Shown here: positions 5,890 through 52,589 of the stretch, piece by piece
Layout: each line of letters begins with the position of its first letter
Numbering within the stretch: position 1 is the stretch's first letter
NCBI GenBank assembly: GCA_021413735.1
Contig: JAIOPV010000278.1
Location: 1 to 64,000 of the forward strand
Direction of reading: 5' to 3'
DNA from: Planctomycetota bacterium
GTDB lineage: Bacteria; Planctomycetota; Planctomycetia; Gemmatales; Gemmataceae
DNA: 64,000 nucleotides
Made by a program: the position numbers and the translations under genes
Notes under the pieces: generated by a model
The model's database searches: none
Seen by the model: the letters and a program-made list of their open reading frames with translations, nothing else
Told to the model about the DNA's origin: nothing

Positions 5890-5963
5890 GATAACCTCGG
5901 CGCGATGAGTGCGAGGCTTCAGCTTACACGCGACCGGTTGCGGGACATAGCCGGAACAAGCAA

Positions 5964-6083
5964 ACACAGGGCTTCCGCCCTGTGCTACAAACGCCGGCCC
6001 CATCCGGGGCGGAAAACCGAGACCAACCACCCTCTTCGCCCTGGAAGGGCCGTCTTTCGTAGCACAGGGCGGAAGCCCCGTGT
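5964..6083. repeat. inverted repeat (GTAGCACAGGGCGGAAG family)
   Basis: Arms at 5964-5988 and 6059-6083 are near-perfect reverse complements built around CACAGGGCGGAAGCCC. The 70-base centre contains further short GC-rich complementary runs. It fills most of the divergent spacer between the cytochrome gene and the Hsp70 gene. The Hsp70 promoter must therefore lie inside it or in the last 60 bases before the start. Confidence 0.85.
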
Positions 6084-6145
6084 CTTCTTCTACAATACCC
6101 GCAGACACGAACCAGCAGCGCCCGACTCCTTCTGACACACGAACC

Positions 6146-10871: not shown

Positions 10872-10940
10872 GCGTGTCCTCGTGACGGCAATTCGGCTTC
10901 CTTTCGGAGTATCGGGAGCGGGGAGAAGAGAACAGAGAGA

Positions 10941-11095
10941 AAGGCAAGAAGAGTATTCACCGCAGAGGGCGCAGAGGGCGCGGAGAAAGGCAAAAGGCAA
11001 AGATAAGAGGAGTGTCAGAAACCCTGTATTCTCTCGCTCTTGATGGTCTCTCTGCGCCCCCCGCGCCCACTGCGGTGAATACTCTTCTTGCCTTT
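10941..11095. repeat. large inverted repeat (TTCACCGCAGAGGGCGCAG family)
   Basis: Left arm 10941-10984 and right arm 11050-11095 are imperfect reverse complements around AAGAGTATTCACCGCAG. The left arm contains a tandem GCAGAGGGC duplication. It fills the spacer between malQ and the upstream minus-strand gene, whose stop codon overlaps the end of the right arm. The type of sequence is common between genes in planctomycete genomes. Confidence 0.8.
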
Positions 11096-11657
11096 ATCCG
11101 TTAAGAACGGCGATGACTGCTCCGAGGCCGCCGTCGCCGGTCAGTTCACGCATCGGAAGCATCCCGAGATAGCGTCGCCGGGCTTCGTTCACGATGGCGA
11201 TGTCGGTCGGATCGCCACCCACGAGCAGAGCATGTGCGTGAGCCATCACGGCGCTCTTCAATGTGTTCGCCTGCACGCGAATCGTGTTCGGCACCCACCG
11301 CCCCGGATGTAAATGCAGATATCGCCCGTCCGCCGGCCCAAGTCGGATGGTCCATTTTGCGCCGTCGGGCAACTCGATCATCGAGTATTCGCCCTGCGCT
11401 TGCAGCCAGGCCGACAACGGCTCGAATGACAACCGATCAGCGGTGCGAAGTTGCGTGACGACATGCTCCCCAATTTCCGCTGGCGTAAACGACCCGGTGT
11501 AAAGGTCCATGAGCCGTGCCCCGACGACCGCCATTTCGGAGACGAGAGAATCTACGCCCGCACTACCACCCGCGACCGCCTGATCGATGCGCCAGCGAAT
11601 CCAACCGGCGTGGTGTTTCCAGGTGTTCAGCAAAACGGGATGTGGGGGATCGTTCAC
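11094..11657 (-). CDS. conserved hypothetical protein
   Basis: 187 residues, soluble, no signal peptide or membrane segment. A region rich in conserved-looking residues (HHAGWIRWRIDQ, then GARLMDLYTG) is followed by EHVVTQLRTADRL and a C-terminal ARRRYLGMLPMRELTG. I do not recognise the family. The strand and start are supported by clean codon use and by absence of a better frame on the other strand. An intrinsic-terminator-like hairpin lies 32 bases upstream of its start, on its own coding strand. Confidence 0.7.
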   Translation of the reverse strand: MNDPPHPVLLNTWKHHAGWIRWRIDQAVAGGSAGVDSLVSEMAVVGARLMDLYTGSFTPAEIGEHVVTQLRTADRLSFEPLSAWLQAQGEYSMIELPDGAKWTIRLGPADGRYLHLHPGRWVPNTIRVQANTLKSAVMAHAHALLVGGDPTDIAIVNEARRRYLGMLPMRELTGDGGLGAVIAVLNG

Positions 11658-26304: not shown

Positions 26305-26592
26305 AGGAAGAGTAGCCACGGATGAACACAGATGAAACACGGATAAGACGAAGGCAGAAGCGAATTTAGCCGCACGATCGAAAACCCGATCAAGACACGA
26401 TCAAAACAAAAGGCAGAGAGCCATTGTGTTGAAAACCGTGGACCCCCTGCGTTTTGGGTTTCTGTCTTTCCAACACTGAATTCTTTTGGTGTTTTGTCTG
26501 AATCGTGTCTTCATCGGGTTTCAATCGGGCGGCGAATTCTGTCATGGTCTTATCCGTGTTTCATCTGTGTTCATCCGTGGCTACTCTTCTTC
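26305..26592. repeat. 288-base composite inverted repeat (AGCCACGGATGAACACAG family)
   Basis: Outer arms 26305-26350 and 26546-26592 are near-identical complements around GGATGAACACAGATGAAAC. Inner arms about 26362-26407 and 26491-26539 (around CCCGATCAAGACACGATC) pair imperfectly. Together they fill most of the 379-base gap between the DUF2721 gene and lpxA. No coding frame is supported. Confidence 0.85.
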
Positions 26593-31233: not shown

Positions 31234-31353
31234 GTGTTTAGTGTTTGGTGTTTAGTGTTTAGTGCTTCGTATTTGGCGTTGTGTGAGTGCATGGTCGTTC
31301 CCGAGGGTTCCACCACAAAACACCCAAACACGAAACACCAAACACTAAACACC
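31234..31353. repeat. inverted repeat (GTGTTTAGTGTTTGG family)
   Basis: Arms 31234-31272 and 31315-31353 are imperfect complements made of AC/GT-rich units such as GTGTTTAGTGTTTGGTG. It lies inside the export operon between ATPase and permease. The right arm overlaps the last codons and stop of the ATPase gene, so the protein's final residues derive from the repeat. Confidence 0.8.
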
Positions 31354-32040
31354 AGCGGCCGTATCCAGCACCAACTGCCCCTTCTCCAGATGCAGAATCC
31401 GCTGTGCACGCGACGCGGCCTTCGGATCGTGCGTCACCATGATGATCGTCTTGCCGAGCTGCGCCCGCAGAATCTCCATGAGCTTCAAAATCTCGTCGGC
31501 GCTCTTCGTGTCGAGGTCGCCGGTCGGTTCGTCTGCCACGATCAGTTCGGGATCCGTCACCATCGCGCGAGCAATGCCGACTCGCTGCTGCTGACCACCC
31601 GAAAGCTGCCCCGGTCGGTGATCCATGCGGTCGGCCAACCCAACAAGATCGAGGGCAGTTGTCACCTGCTTGCGGCGCTGTTCCTTCGTGAGCGCCAGCA
31701 ACAACAATGGCAACTCCACGTTCTCGTATGCCGTGAGCACTGGCAGCAAATAGTAGAACTGAAAGATGAAGCCGACGTGCCGGGTTCGCCAGCGTGCGAG
31801 TTCGCTTTCGGACATCTCCGAGATGACGTTCTCGCCAACGCTAATCTTGCCGGACGTCGGCTGGTCGAGACCCGCGATGAGGTTGAGTAGCGTCGTTTTG
31901 CCGGACCCCGACGGACCCATGAGCGCGAGGAACTCCGCCTGCCCGACATCGAGCGTGAGTTTCTGCAACACGTCGATCCGTTCGGTGCCGCGGGTAAACG
32001 ACTTGACCAGATCGCGAACTTGAACCAGCGCTCGGGCCAT
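31345..32040 (-). CDS. ABC transporter ATP-binding protein (MacB/LolD type)
   Basis: 231 residues. Walker A GPSGSGKTT, signature LSGGQQQRVGIARAM, Walker B LIVADEPTGDLD and switch His MVTHD are intact. The GDLDTKS sequence after Walker B is typical of the MacB/LolD subfamily that drives FtsX-type permeases. ATG 32040 is the first Met before the conserved start; the longer frame crosses a palindrome. Fourth-from-last logic of the operon: TetR, HlyD, ATPase, permease, permease. Confidence 0.93.
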   Translation of the reverse strand: MARALVQVRDLVKSFTRGTERIDVLQKLTLDVGQAEFLALMGPSGSGKTTLLNLIAGLDQPTSGKISVGENVISEMSESELARWRTRHVGFIFQFYYLLPVLTAYENVELPLLLLALTKEQRRKQVTTALDLVGLADRMDHRPGQLSGGQQQRVGIARAMVTDPELIVADEPTGDLDTKSADEILKLMEILRAQLGKTIIMVTHDPKAASRAQRILHLEKGQLVLDTAAGV

Positions 32041-37396: not shown

Positions 37397-37487
37397 AAGC
37401 GTGAGCGTCGAGGCGTGAGCCCGACGGTGCTGTCCGGAACCAGTTCCAATCGCGAATCAACCGTCGGCCTGACGGCTCGACGCTCGC
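37397..37487. repeat. inverted repeat (CGTCGGCCTGACGGCTCG family)
   Basis: Arms 37397-37428 and 37459-37487 are complementary with a few mismatches around GAGCGTCGAG. The right arm recurs at bases 1-24. It sits between cytochrome and DUF1501 genes of one operon. Confidence 0.8.
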
Positions 37488-42109: not shown

Positions 42110-43204
42110 TCAGATTGCTTGGACCGACCCATCTGGTCCGAATCGGACCCGCCCCGGCTTCCACCGCAGGGAGTCCCGCAGCTCACCCTTCGCGATTCGC
42201 AGCATAGCCTCCGCGATGTTGAAATCCGCGAGCGCTCGCAGCCCGACATACGACGTCGTGAGCCGAGGGTTGATCTCGATGGCGAAGTCGCGTGAGCCGT
42301 CTGCCGCATCTCCCAACACGAGATCGACGCCCACATATCCGAGCAACCCGGGGACGCAATCGACGGCACGCTGAGCCAACCGCGTGGCACGTTCCGCCAA
42401 CTCCGACGGAATCGGCAACTCGCCACCGAGGTACTTGAATCGGCCGTCGTCGGAGAGCAACTGAAACGTCGGCAGCAGTGGCACATTCCCCGCTGGCCCG
42501 CACAGGAACGCGACGCTCGCCGCTTGCCCGCTGACGAACTGTTGCAGGATCATCGGTCCGGTGTGATTCTCGGCAGCGAGTCGGGCCTTGGCGCTGGTCG
42601 CGTCGAAGTACGAGTTCAGCTTGAACGTGGCGGTTGAGCCAGCGCCGTCTTGCGGCTTCCACACAACGGGGAAGACTTCGCAGCGTGTCGGTTCGCGGTC
42701 GGTGGTTGCGGGCGTGCGGACGCCGTGTTCGCGCCAGTGCTGCGACAACGCGAGCTTGTCCGACGTGAGTTGGATAGCGTGAAAAGAAGGGCCGAGGAGT
42801 TGGCTGCCGAGAGCAAGGCGTTCGGCAACTAAAGGTTTACCCCCCACCCGGCTCGAAGACTCGCCACCCTCCCCCACAAGGGGGGAGGGCAAGAAAAGCG
42901 AAGCGCGTTCTTGGGTTTTGTCCTCCCCCCTTGTGGGGGAGGTGTCGAGGCTTTGCGAGACGGTGGGGGGTGAGTTACCACTCACCAAACCCCTGAGAAC
43001 CTGCTGTGCAGTTCGAGCGAGGATTCCGTCTGACTCCGGCGCGATGACGACCGACCAGTGGACCGCTTCATCTGGAATCAGCGCGAAGTCCGCAATGAGG
43101 GCGTCGCGCATGGCGAGACCTTCGCGATACATGCCGTGTTCGGGCGAAGCCGGATCGCGACCAATGCCAAGAGCCGTCAGGTATTCGTAGACGAAGACAC
43201 GCAT
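42110..43204 (-). CDS. ATP-grasp ligase (MfnD-like) interrupted by an in-frame palindromic insertion
   Basis: 364 residues. N-terminus VFVYEYLTALGIG and IAPESDGILA, then LLGPSFHAIQLTSDKLAL, a Lys-containing strand FPVVWKPQDGAGS, LQQFVSGQAASVAFLC, and the metal-site strand DFAIEINPRLTTSYVGLR are ATP-grasp features. The overall pattern recalls tyramine-glutamate ligase-type enzymes of methanofuran/methanopterin C1 pathways, which planctomycetes carry; this is a moderate inference. Residues about 77-123 (NSPPTVSQ through SSRVGGK) are encoded by a palindromic repeat and are Ser/Pro/Gly-rich, sitting between the second strand and the LLGPS segment, which relatives would join by a short loop. The frame remains open. 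Confidence 0.8.
   Translation of the reverse strand: MRVFVYEYLTALGIGRDPASPEHGMYREGLAMRDALIADFALIPDEAVHWSVVIAPESDGILARTAQQVLRGLVSGNSPPTVSQSLDTSPTRGEDKTQERASLFLPSPLVGEGGESSSRVGGKPLVAERLALGSQLLGPSFHAIQLTSDKLALSQHWREHGVRTPATTDREPTRCEVFPVVWKPQDGAGSTATFKLNSYFDATSAKARLAAENHTGPMILQQFVSGQAASVAFLCGPAGNVPLLPTFQLLSDDGRFKYLGGELPIPSELAERATRLAQRAVDCVPGLLGYVGVDLVLGDAADGSRDFAIEINPRLTTSYVGLRALADFNIAEAMLRIAKGELRDSLRWKPGRVRFGPDGSVQAI
42837..42976. repeat. palindromic element inside the ATP-grasp coding sequence
   Basis: Two REP-like units in opposite orientation: 42837-42893 (CCACCCTCCCCCACAAGGG core) and about 42920-42976 (GTCGAGGCTTTGCGAGACGG core). The arms pair with each other and each contains its own C-run/G-run hairpin. 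Close relatives of both units occur at 52408..52550 in the opposite order. Confidence 0.85.
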
Positions 43205-43236
43205 GGTCGGTTTCCGGGATGCTCACGATGTTCACG

Positions 43237-43351
43237 AACCCAGGCCGTTGGCCTGGGCTGAGGGAGATCGGTCCTTCAGACCTCAAAAACCAAGAATGTC
43301 TTTGCGGTCTGAAGGACCGGGCTTCCTCAGCCCAGGCCAACGGCCTGGGTT
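43237..43351. repeat. inverted repeat flanked by 16-base direct repeats
   Basis: Outer arms 43237-43263 and 43326-43351 (around CAGGCCGTTGGCCTGGGCTG) and inner arms 43269-43282 and 43306-43319 (CGGTCCTTCAGACC) pair perfectly or nearly so. The 16-mer GCATGGTCGGTTTCCG occurs at 43201-43216, covering the ATP-grasp start codon, and again at 43405-43420. The element lies in the divergent spacer between ATP-grasp and DUF1501 genes (43205-43504). Confidence 0.85.
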
Positions 43352-43504
43352 CCATTGGTAACGCCAACGGCTTGGATTCTCTTGAGCCTCACGGGCATCG
43401 TCGCGCATGGTCGGTTTCCGCTTCCCGAATGGCACATCCTGCGGCATACTCTATTCACCTGCCCGCCTTCCTCGCACTCTTCCCACCCACGCGAGGGTCT
43501 GTTC

Positions 43505-44860
43505 ATGCTGCCGCGTCACTGCACCGGTCCCAACCGTCGCGAAGCGCTCGCCATTGGCTCACTCGGCACATACGGCCTCACGCTCCCGCAACTGCTCTCG
43601 GCTCGTGAAGGATCAGGGGGCTCACGCCCCCCGCTCGCCAAGCCGAAGGCGTGCATCATGCTGTTCCTGCTCGGTGCGCCGCCGCAACAGGAGACGTGGG
43701 ACCCGAAGCCCGACGCACCCGTCGAGGCACGCGGCGACATGGGCGTGATCCGCACCGCGACGCCCGGCCTCATCCTCGGCGAAACAATGGTGAAGACGAG
43801 CCGATGGACCGAGAAGATCGCCGTGCTGCGAGCCGTTTCGACACGCGACAGTTCGCACTCATCCTCTGGCTACTACATGACGACCGGCTATCCGCACGCA
43901 CCCATCGGCGTGGAGAACGCGAAGCCGGGATCGCCGAACGACTGGCCGAGCATTGGGGCCGTGGTGCGAAAGGTGCTGCAACCGCAGTGCAAGTTGCCGG
44001 CGGCGGTCACGCTTCCGGAAGTGTCCGCGAACGACGGCAACCTGACATGGCCGGGCCAGGACGCGGGCTTCCTCGGTCGCTCGGCCGATCCGTGGCTCAT
44101 CAACTGTGAACCGGAGAAGGGCAAGTTCGACATTCCCGGCCTGGCGTTGCCTGCGGAGGTGTCGGCGTCGCGGTTCGATGATCGCCGCAGATTGCTCGAA
44201 GGCATCGACCATGTGCAGGGAAGTTCTGATGATCGCGGCATCGCATCGAAGGCGTTCGAGATGATTTCCTCGCCCGTGGCTCGCAAAGCGTTCGATCTCG
44301 ATTCGGAAGACGTTCGCACCCGCGACCGTTACGGCCGTTCGCGTTTCGGTCAGAGTTGCTTACTGGCGAGACGGCTCGTGGAAGCTGGTGTGCCGTTGAT
44401 TCGCGTGAACTGGACTCGCGTTCCGGGGATGCCGAACAACGGTCACTGGGACACGCACAGTAAGAACACCGAGAGCTTGCGGCGAATGATGCCGATTCTC
44501 GACGGAGCGTACACGGCACTGCTCGAAGACCTGAGCGATCGCGGAATGCTCGACGACACGCTGATTGTGTGGTGTGCGGAGTTTGGTCGCACGCCGAAGA
44601 TTAACGGTGCGGGTGGTCGCGATCACTGGGGACCGGTGTTTTCGGTGGCGTTGGCGGGTGGCGGCGTGAAGGGTGGGGCGGTCTACGGTGCGAGCGACAA
44701 GTTGGCGGCGTATCCGAAGGATGGCCGTGTGACGCCACAGGATTTGCACGCGACGATCTATCATTGCCTGGGCATCCCGAAGGACGCCGAAATTCACGAC
44801 GGCCTGGGTCGCCCGCTTCCCGTGACACGCGGCGAACCGATCCGAGCCATCCTGGGGTGA
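43505..44860 (+). CDS. DUF1501 domain protein
   Basis: 451 residues. N-terminal NRREALAIGSLGTYGL is a Tat-like signal. DUF1501 segments: IMLFLLGAPPQQETWDPKP, NGHWDTHSKNTESL, WCAEFGRTPKING with GGRDHWGP, and HATIYHCLGIPKDAE. More distant from the other two copies; no cytochrome gene nearby. The linker between signal and domain (EGSGGSRPPLA) is encoded by a small GC hairpin, GGGGGCTCACGCCCCCC, about 43615-43631. The start of the next gene overlaps its stop (TGATG). Confidence 0.9.
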   Translation: MLPRHCTGPNRREALAIGSLGTYGLTLPQLLSAREGSGGSRPPLAKPKACIMLFLLGAPPQQETWDPKPDAPVEARGDMGVIRTATPGLILGETMVKTSRWTEKIAVLRAVSTRDSSHSSSGYYMTTGYPHAPIGVENAKPGSPNDWPSIGAVVRKVLQPQCKLPAAVTLPEVSANDGNLTWPGQDAGFLGRSADPWLINCEPEKGKFDIPGLALPAEVSASRFDDRRRLLEGIDHVQGSSDDRGIASKAFEMISSPVARKAFDLDSEDVRTRDRYGRSRFGQSCLLARRLVEAGVPLIRVNWTRVPGMPNNGHWDTHSKNTESLRRMMPILDGAYTALLEDLSDRGMLDDTLIVWCAEFGRTPKINGAGGRDHWGPVFSVALAGGGVKGGAVYGASDKLAAYPKDGRVTPQDLHATIYHCLGIPKDAEIHDGLGRPLPVTRGEPIRAILG

Positions 44861-52322: not shown

Positions 52323-52466
52323 ATGTCCAACAATCCTCTTCTGAACCCCAATTTCGCCGCAGCGAAAGCCCGAGGCGAACGGTATGTGAAGTTTTACCCG
52401 ATGGTGTTTTCGCCCTCTCCCCTTGCGGGAGAGGGCAGCGAGGCTTTGCGAGCGGGTGAGGGGTGA
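52323..52466 (+). pseudogene. short ORF running into a palindromic element
   Basis: Codons 1-26 (MSNNPLLNPNFAAAKARGER and on to KFYP) read like the start of a protein. The rest (SPSPLAGEG type) is repeat-derived and ends at 52466. It may be a gene start cut off by insertion of the element at 52386..52589; the continuation was not found past the element. Confidence 0.25.
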
Positions 52467-52589
52467 AAGCGTTACTGATGTTCGTGCTTGACCCCTCACC
52501 CGTCCGCGAAGCGCGGACACCCTCTCCCGCAAGGGGAGAGGGCGAAAACCAAAAACCATTTGAGTAACGTTTAATTGGTAGAACTTCAC
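52386..52589. repeat. palindromic element, REP-like pair (relative of the in-gene element)
   Basis: Main arms 52408-52467 and 52490-52550 (CGCCCTCTCCCCTTGCGGG with its complement) and short outer arms GTGAAGTTTTACC (52386) and GGTAGAACTTCAC (52577). Contains the same GAGGCTTTGCGAG core as the element in the ATP-grasp gene. It occupies the middle of the 509-base gap between the surface protein and the caspase gene; nothing else in the gap is convincing. Confidence 0.85.

Follow-up and report, generated by a model that had tools for sequence, protein, structure and literature searches.

The stretch of DNA analysed here (the window) comprises 64,000 nucleotides of contig JAIOPV010000278.1 from a planctomycete of the family Gemmataceae (assembly GCA_021413735.1), and has a GC content of 60.6%. 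It includes an ATP-grasp ligase gene on the minus strand that contains a palindromic element in frame (Table 1). The gene product matches the Pfam family ATP-grasp_3 with an E value of 8e-31, whereas preATP-grasp_3 scored below its cut-off and the best NCBIfam match, MfnD, was far below its cut-off. A match to the gene is present in 83 of 95 genomes of the family. Rfam gave no match in the window at gathering thresholds, and ARAGORN detected no tRNA.

Table 1. Features of the window
Position	Strand	Feature
42110-43204	-	ATP-grasp ligase gene, 364 aa, unbroken frame, holding the insert
42816-42994	-	Whole palindromic element, AGG...CCT, 179 nt; encodes residues about 71-130
42816-42841	-	Outer inverted arm; plus-strand reading resembles AGGCGTTCGGCAGGTGAAGGTT of copy C192
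42868-42942	-	Two REP hairpins in inverted order with their 25-nt spacer (25-nt arms 42868-42892 and 42918-42942, 96% complementary)
42969-42994	-	Opposite outer arm, more diverged
52406-52549		Second copy in the window, of the related GAGAGGG dimer type, between two long convergent ORFs
43236-43352		Another palindrome, 55-nt arms, 91% complementary (CCCAGGCCGTTGGCCTGGG...), between the ATP-grasp gene and the divergent DUF1501 gene
43606-43642		Short GC palindrome (GGGGGCTCACGCCCCCC) read in frame as part of REGSGGSRPPLAK near the N-terminus of the DUF1501 gene
37403-37485		Palindrome GAGCGTCGAGGCGTGAGCCCGACGGT
5958-6089		Palindrome with ACAGGGCTTCCGCCCTGT, in the upstream part of a cytochrome/DUF1549 ORF, probably before its start
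10937-11098		Other palindrome in a window ORF
26382-26521		Other palindrome in a window ORF
31234-31354		Other palindrome in a window ORF

The initial annotation described about 140 bases of REP-like palindrome (42837-42976) that lie in frame in the gene and add about 47 residues (about 77-123). The presence, frame, and strand of the palindrome were confirmed, but its extent requires correction. Alignment of five full-length copies, four from this genome and one from a related genome of the genus (G016), revealed partly conserved outer arms beyond these limits. As single-stranded RNA, the whole element folds as one end-to-end hairpin at -110.9 kcal/mol (z -8.6 against 200 shuffles). The 29 best orthologues with available loci were aligned, and 29 of 29 lack the segment, two of them with 2 extra residues, giving a net gain of 60 residues rather than 47. 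In G016, which is 87% identical over query residues 132-364 and 77% identical over residues 1-69, the two matched parts are 6 nt apart. A target-site duplication was sought by eye at this copy and not found, and a net gain of 180 nt against a palindrome of 179 nt leaves the exact junction open.

AlphaFold, run with 12 sequences, predicted a disordered loop for the insert. The best model had a mean pLDDT of 72.6 and a pTM of 0.75, while the other four models had means of 69.5, 56.5, 51.5, and 49.7; the model is fair, not excellent. Residues 78-133 are below 50, between a helix at residues 61-74 and a strand at residues 135-137 of the N-terminal part, and residues 2-15 are also below 50.

Copies in the genome and the genus

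The element is repetitive. A search of the same genome (G000; 9.8 Mb, 293 contigs) with the 140-nt query listed 118 matching pieces, with both strands counted and 40 of 111 candidates scored, among them four full-length copies at 100, 98, 96, and 93% identity, the first being the copy in the window. Short patterns for two hairpin types, which overlap in part, gave 171 and 139 matches on both strands, with reversed-pattern controls of 32 and 0. In the family, the DNA query was found in 19 of 95 genomes and 4 of 39 genera, with at most 9 candidates scored per genome.

A second full-length copy (C251) lies in the same phase in an 888-aa ORF, within a Pro/Ala/Glu-rich linker. This ORF has no Pfam match, but we read a P-loop in the motif GNKGAGKTHLL, and the gene is called P-loop ATPase-like. 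Of 30 orthologous ORFs, including its own, only its own has the insert peptide. The linker of this ATPase in two related genomes (loci L110 of G025 and L113 of G015) carries a peptide motif, AGGVSPL...GADAPRSP, that is perhaps yet another in-frame palindrome family.

Related dimers of the GAGAGGG and GGGGAGG types, with hairpins in the opposite order and mostly 109-120 nt from end to end of the cores, are in frame in QueA, RNase R, a Cu-type P-ATPase just before its GDGINDAP motif, an RNase H-like protein (L091, in the tail after the domain and not inside it), RsmB, squalene-hopene cyclase, MnmE, an ORF without a Pfam match (L005), and one further ORF (L222). Together with the window gene and C251, this makes 11 accepted in-gene copies among 88 clusters examined in G000. 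These sites came from a partial sample of DNA matches, and the clusters include single-hairpin hits that may be chance. Pfam names 8 of the 11 hosts, two have no Pfam match, and L222 was not scanned. All 11 read the first hairpin in the same codon phase, although the second hairpin of L222 is in another phase and the phase of L165, which was noticed through a peptide pattern, is not an independent observation. By inspection, two of three phases of a strand are free of stops in a typical copy. Loci L026 and L165 scored below our coding cut-off of 0.15 but were kept on Pfam matches beside the insert. Loci L006, L021, L023, and L086 were dropped before counting, as the upstream side has no coding signal and the element probably lies before the start, and L007, L010, and L027 were dropped because one or both sides score weakly. 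Locus L083 (C245) was also dropped. Its dimer lies in a 562-aa open frame with weak scores and a kinase-like Pfam match on one side only, and it may be a further in-gene case or a fusion of two genes. The palindromes at 5958-6089, 10937-11098, 26382-26521, and 31234-31354 look upstream of the likely start or lie in an ORF without a Pfam match, and were not counted.

Comparison with solved relatives shows the gaps in two hosts. QueA query residues 289-342 are unaligned between residues 272 and 278 of 1vky, and Cu-ATPase residues 464-515 are unaligned between residues 733 and 742 of 8q75. The gap is less sharp in an aldehyde dehydrogenase of G013. The Pfam match runs through the insert in QueA, RNase R, and the AMP-binding enzyme of G025.

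A phase test on 72 paired sites of G000 gave 14 with phase kept, 7 shifted, 25 with one coding side, 19 with none, 1 opposite, and 6 at contig edges. Among the 21 sites with both flanks coding on one strand, more than one third thus kept phase, but the test is moderate and crude. Four of the 14 (L158, L162, L174, and L215) have no open ORF through the element, and accepted cases, including that of the window, fell outside the 14.

A search with the insert peptide revealed matches in 8 of 95 family genomes, all 8 among the 19 of the window's genus, with at most 76 candidates scored per genome. Of 60 loci from seven of these genomes (L233-L292), 25 have an open ORF through the element with coding signal on both sides (both flanks above 0.15 under a codon model trained on the window). 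Hosts named by Pfam include MutL, an SMC protein (with the insert just after the matched half of the hinge), SNF2 and SF1-type helicases, a Pnkp-type ligase, apolipoprotein N-acyltransferase, a molybdopterin oxidoreductase, ketoacyl-synthase proteins, an aldehyde dehydrogenase, and an AMP-binding enzyme. The phase test on this set gave 23 kept and 9 shifted. As these loci were chosen by peptide, they are biased and are not used as a rate.

Palindromes at the same protein loops

One loop of QueA appears to have been entered independently. Of 18 genus genomes with the gene, G000 and G025 have a full dimer at the same loop, G013 and G019 have single hairpins of the same general kind, and 14 have no hairpin, though a few of these (G017, G026, G021, and G023) have some extra residues. 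A three-gene tree places G000 with G016 (support 0.987) and G025 with G024 and G013 (0.996). Both G016 and G024 are empty, so at least two gains, or several precise losses, or transfer of the gene, are needed.

The AMP-binding enzyme is more striking. Eighteen loops could be read (that of G014 could not), and in 17 of them, empty ones included, the length is a multiple of three. The gene of G009 is out of frame at the loop, perhaps through sequencing error in base runs. Relative to G015, 13 of the 17 unbroken genes are longer by 8-113 residues at this one position, while no other internal position gains more than 9 residues (shortenings were not counted). Eleven of the 13 are palindromic with z between -3.3 and -13.3, whereas G016 (-1.7) and G017 (-2.4) are not. 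By blastn at E 1e-3, the palindromes fall into six groups without mutual similarity: G022, G024, and G025; G010, G012, G018, and G026, with G009; and the four singletons G000, G011, G013, and G019. The loop of G012 (L377) appears to contain several nested palindromes, which add 113 residues. The palindrome of G000 in this loop (L371) is of the same sequence type as that at 37403-37485 of the window, and the stop reported in the G000 match is the gene's own end. The assemblies of G010, G011, G012, G022, and G026 consist of one to four contigs, so this pattern is not an artefact of fragmented assemblies. Solved relatives did not resolve this loop. In the DUF1501 gene of the window, G016 has a shorter, different segment at the position of the GC palindrome.

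Origin and persistence of the inserts

We consider the insert to be a non-autonomous palindromic element, a REP dimer with extra outer arms, most likely placed in the ATP-grasp gene after this lineage split from G016, its closest relative in the set (probability about 0.85). Its length and stop-free phase would let the ribosome read through it, giving a 60-residue Ser/Pro/Gly-rich loop, and it probably persists because that loop tolerates it. The same process, insertion in many places followed by survival where the frame stays open and the protein loop is permissive, has probably put related palindromes in frame into a range of conserved genes of this genus and unrelated palindromes into the same loop in different species. 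The insertion, its absence in the relatives examined, the copy number, frame preservation, and recurrence at the same loops are shown by sequence. Copy-and-paste mobility, translation of the insert, tolerance, and neutrality are inferred, in the absence of transcript, protein, or activity data.

The initial annotation compared the insert to Rickettsia palindromic elements and suggested a mobile element tolerated as a protein insert, and this interpretation is supported. The comparison is apt as a way of working, but membership by sequence is not shown. Rickettsia palindromic elements (Ogata et al. 2000, 2002, as described in PMC2229807, PMC10969869, and PMC3733652) are likewise short palindromes with long stem-loops, of several families, that are in frame in conserved genes as well as between genes. 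They have been reported in frame in 19 genes (PMC2229807). The present element is somewhat longer (179 nt against 105-146), is built from REP dimers, and resides in a planctomycete with a large genome and not in an intracellular rickettsia, and unrelated palindromes recur at one loop across species. Intragenic REPs of the GTAG and CGTC families (Di Nocera et al. 2013, PMC3733652) also form dimers of hairpins, some within ORFs, including repair and tRNA-related genes. They were described in several species, with most in O. terrae and R. conorii, and in one case different REPs occupy about the same site of recB in two Xanthomonas species. However, the GTAG tetranucleotide is absent within 8 nt on either side of 158 of 158 hairpins examined here, and CGTC is present within 8 nt upstream in 12 of 158 and downstream in 0 of 158, and is not a constant feature. 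Inserts are 36-51 residues by their peptide core and 60 in the window, against mostly 20-30 in those families. ERIC, Correia/NEMIS, YPAL, and other bacterial MITEs with ORFs (PMC2229807) are small inverted-repeat elements that can be fused in frame. The window's element has terminal inverted repeats (imperfect 26-nt outer arms), but no target duplication was found by eye and no autonomous relative was identified, although without a dedicated IS search. Coding palindromes have also been described in nematomorph mitochondria (PMC6649704).

In-frame palindromes as a source of new protein segments are described, in the papers consulted, mainly from Rickettsia and, for REPs, from scattered species. 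Planctomycetes have been named among carriers of REPs (PMC3733652), but in the literature searched, which lacks most subscription papers, nothing further on in-frame palindromes in Gemmata or other Planctomycetes was found, and a search for four insert peptides gave no match. Here, the same way of working appears in large planctomycete genomes, in core enzymes, with filled and empty sites in related species and with what looks like repeated use of the same loops by unrelated palindromes. This turns the old question of whether selfish palindromes shape proteins or are only tolerated into one with many natural replicates, some of them in near-complete assemblies.

Other explanations are less likely. 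The transcript would form an extreme structure inside a coding region, and the segment might be excised from the mRNA or skipped by the ribosome, so that the protein lacks the 60 residues and the open frame is incidental. This is unlikely, as the common phase of the 11 in-gene copies in G000 and the lengths of the AMP-binding loops would not be needed if the segment were removed. In Rickettsia, one insert-bearing enzyme, guanylate kinase, is translated and active with changed substrate affinity (PMC2229807). It is even more doubtful that the gene is a recent pseudogene in which the insertion only happens to be in frame. A random insertion is in frame one time in three, and four of the six frames of this element are open, but there is no stop or frameshift in 364 codons, the best structure model still folds most of the rest, and other conserved genes carry in-frame copies. 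The dN/dS ratio between G000 and G016 is 0.18 in the N part and 0.08 in the C part, though this covers time before the insertion too, and dS in the C part is near saturation (1.1).

The palindromes may instead be beneficial, as domesticated linkers or as regulators of translation or mRNA stability, and be kept at these loops by positive selection. The concentration of palindromes from six dissimilar groups in one loop of the AMP-binding enzyme favors this possibility, which we nevertheless regard as improbable. Four of 17 species have no extra segment there, the QueA loop is without a hairpin in most species, and a permissive loop plus frequent insertion explains the same pattern. A further possibility, not excluded but unlikely, is that certain protein loops in Gemmata-like planctomycetes are true landing sites. 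In this scenario, targeted insertion or template-switch growth of palindromes at a fixed place keeps putting new, sequence-unrelated palindromes into the same codon neighbourhood of housekeeping genes, nearly always in frame, and the hairpin or its peptide does something for the gene.

The mobilising enzyme was not identified. Y1 (RAYT-type) transposases occur in 16 of 19 genus genomes, with 8 matches in G000, but in the 30 loci inspected, only 2 of them from G000, there is no match to this REP within 2 mismatches. Some of these genes are flanked by other hairpins, such as GCACAGGGCGGGAGCCCTGTGC, and the palindrome at 5958-6089 of the window is similar to hairpins seen beside some Y1 transposases in other genomes. 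Some other dimers of G000 (loci L012, L018, L079, L081, and L090) are nested inside longer inverted arms (GGAACGTGTCCGAAATAAC, or like GGAACGTGTCCGAAATAACTTCCC) with a possible TAA duplication, as judged by eye, perhaps a MITE carrying the REP dimer.
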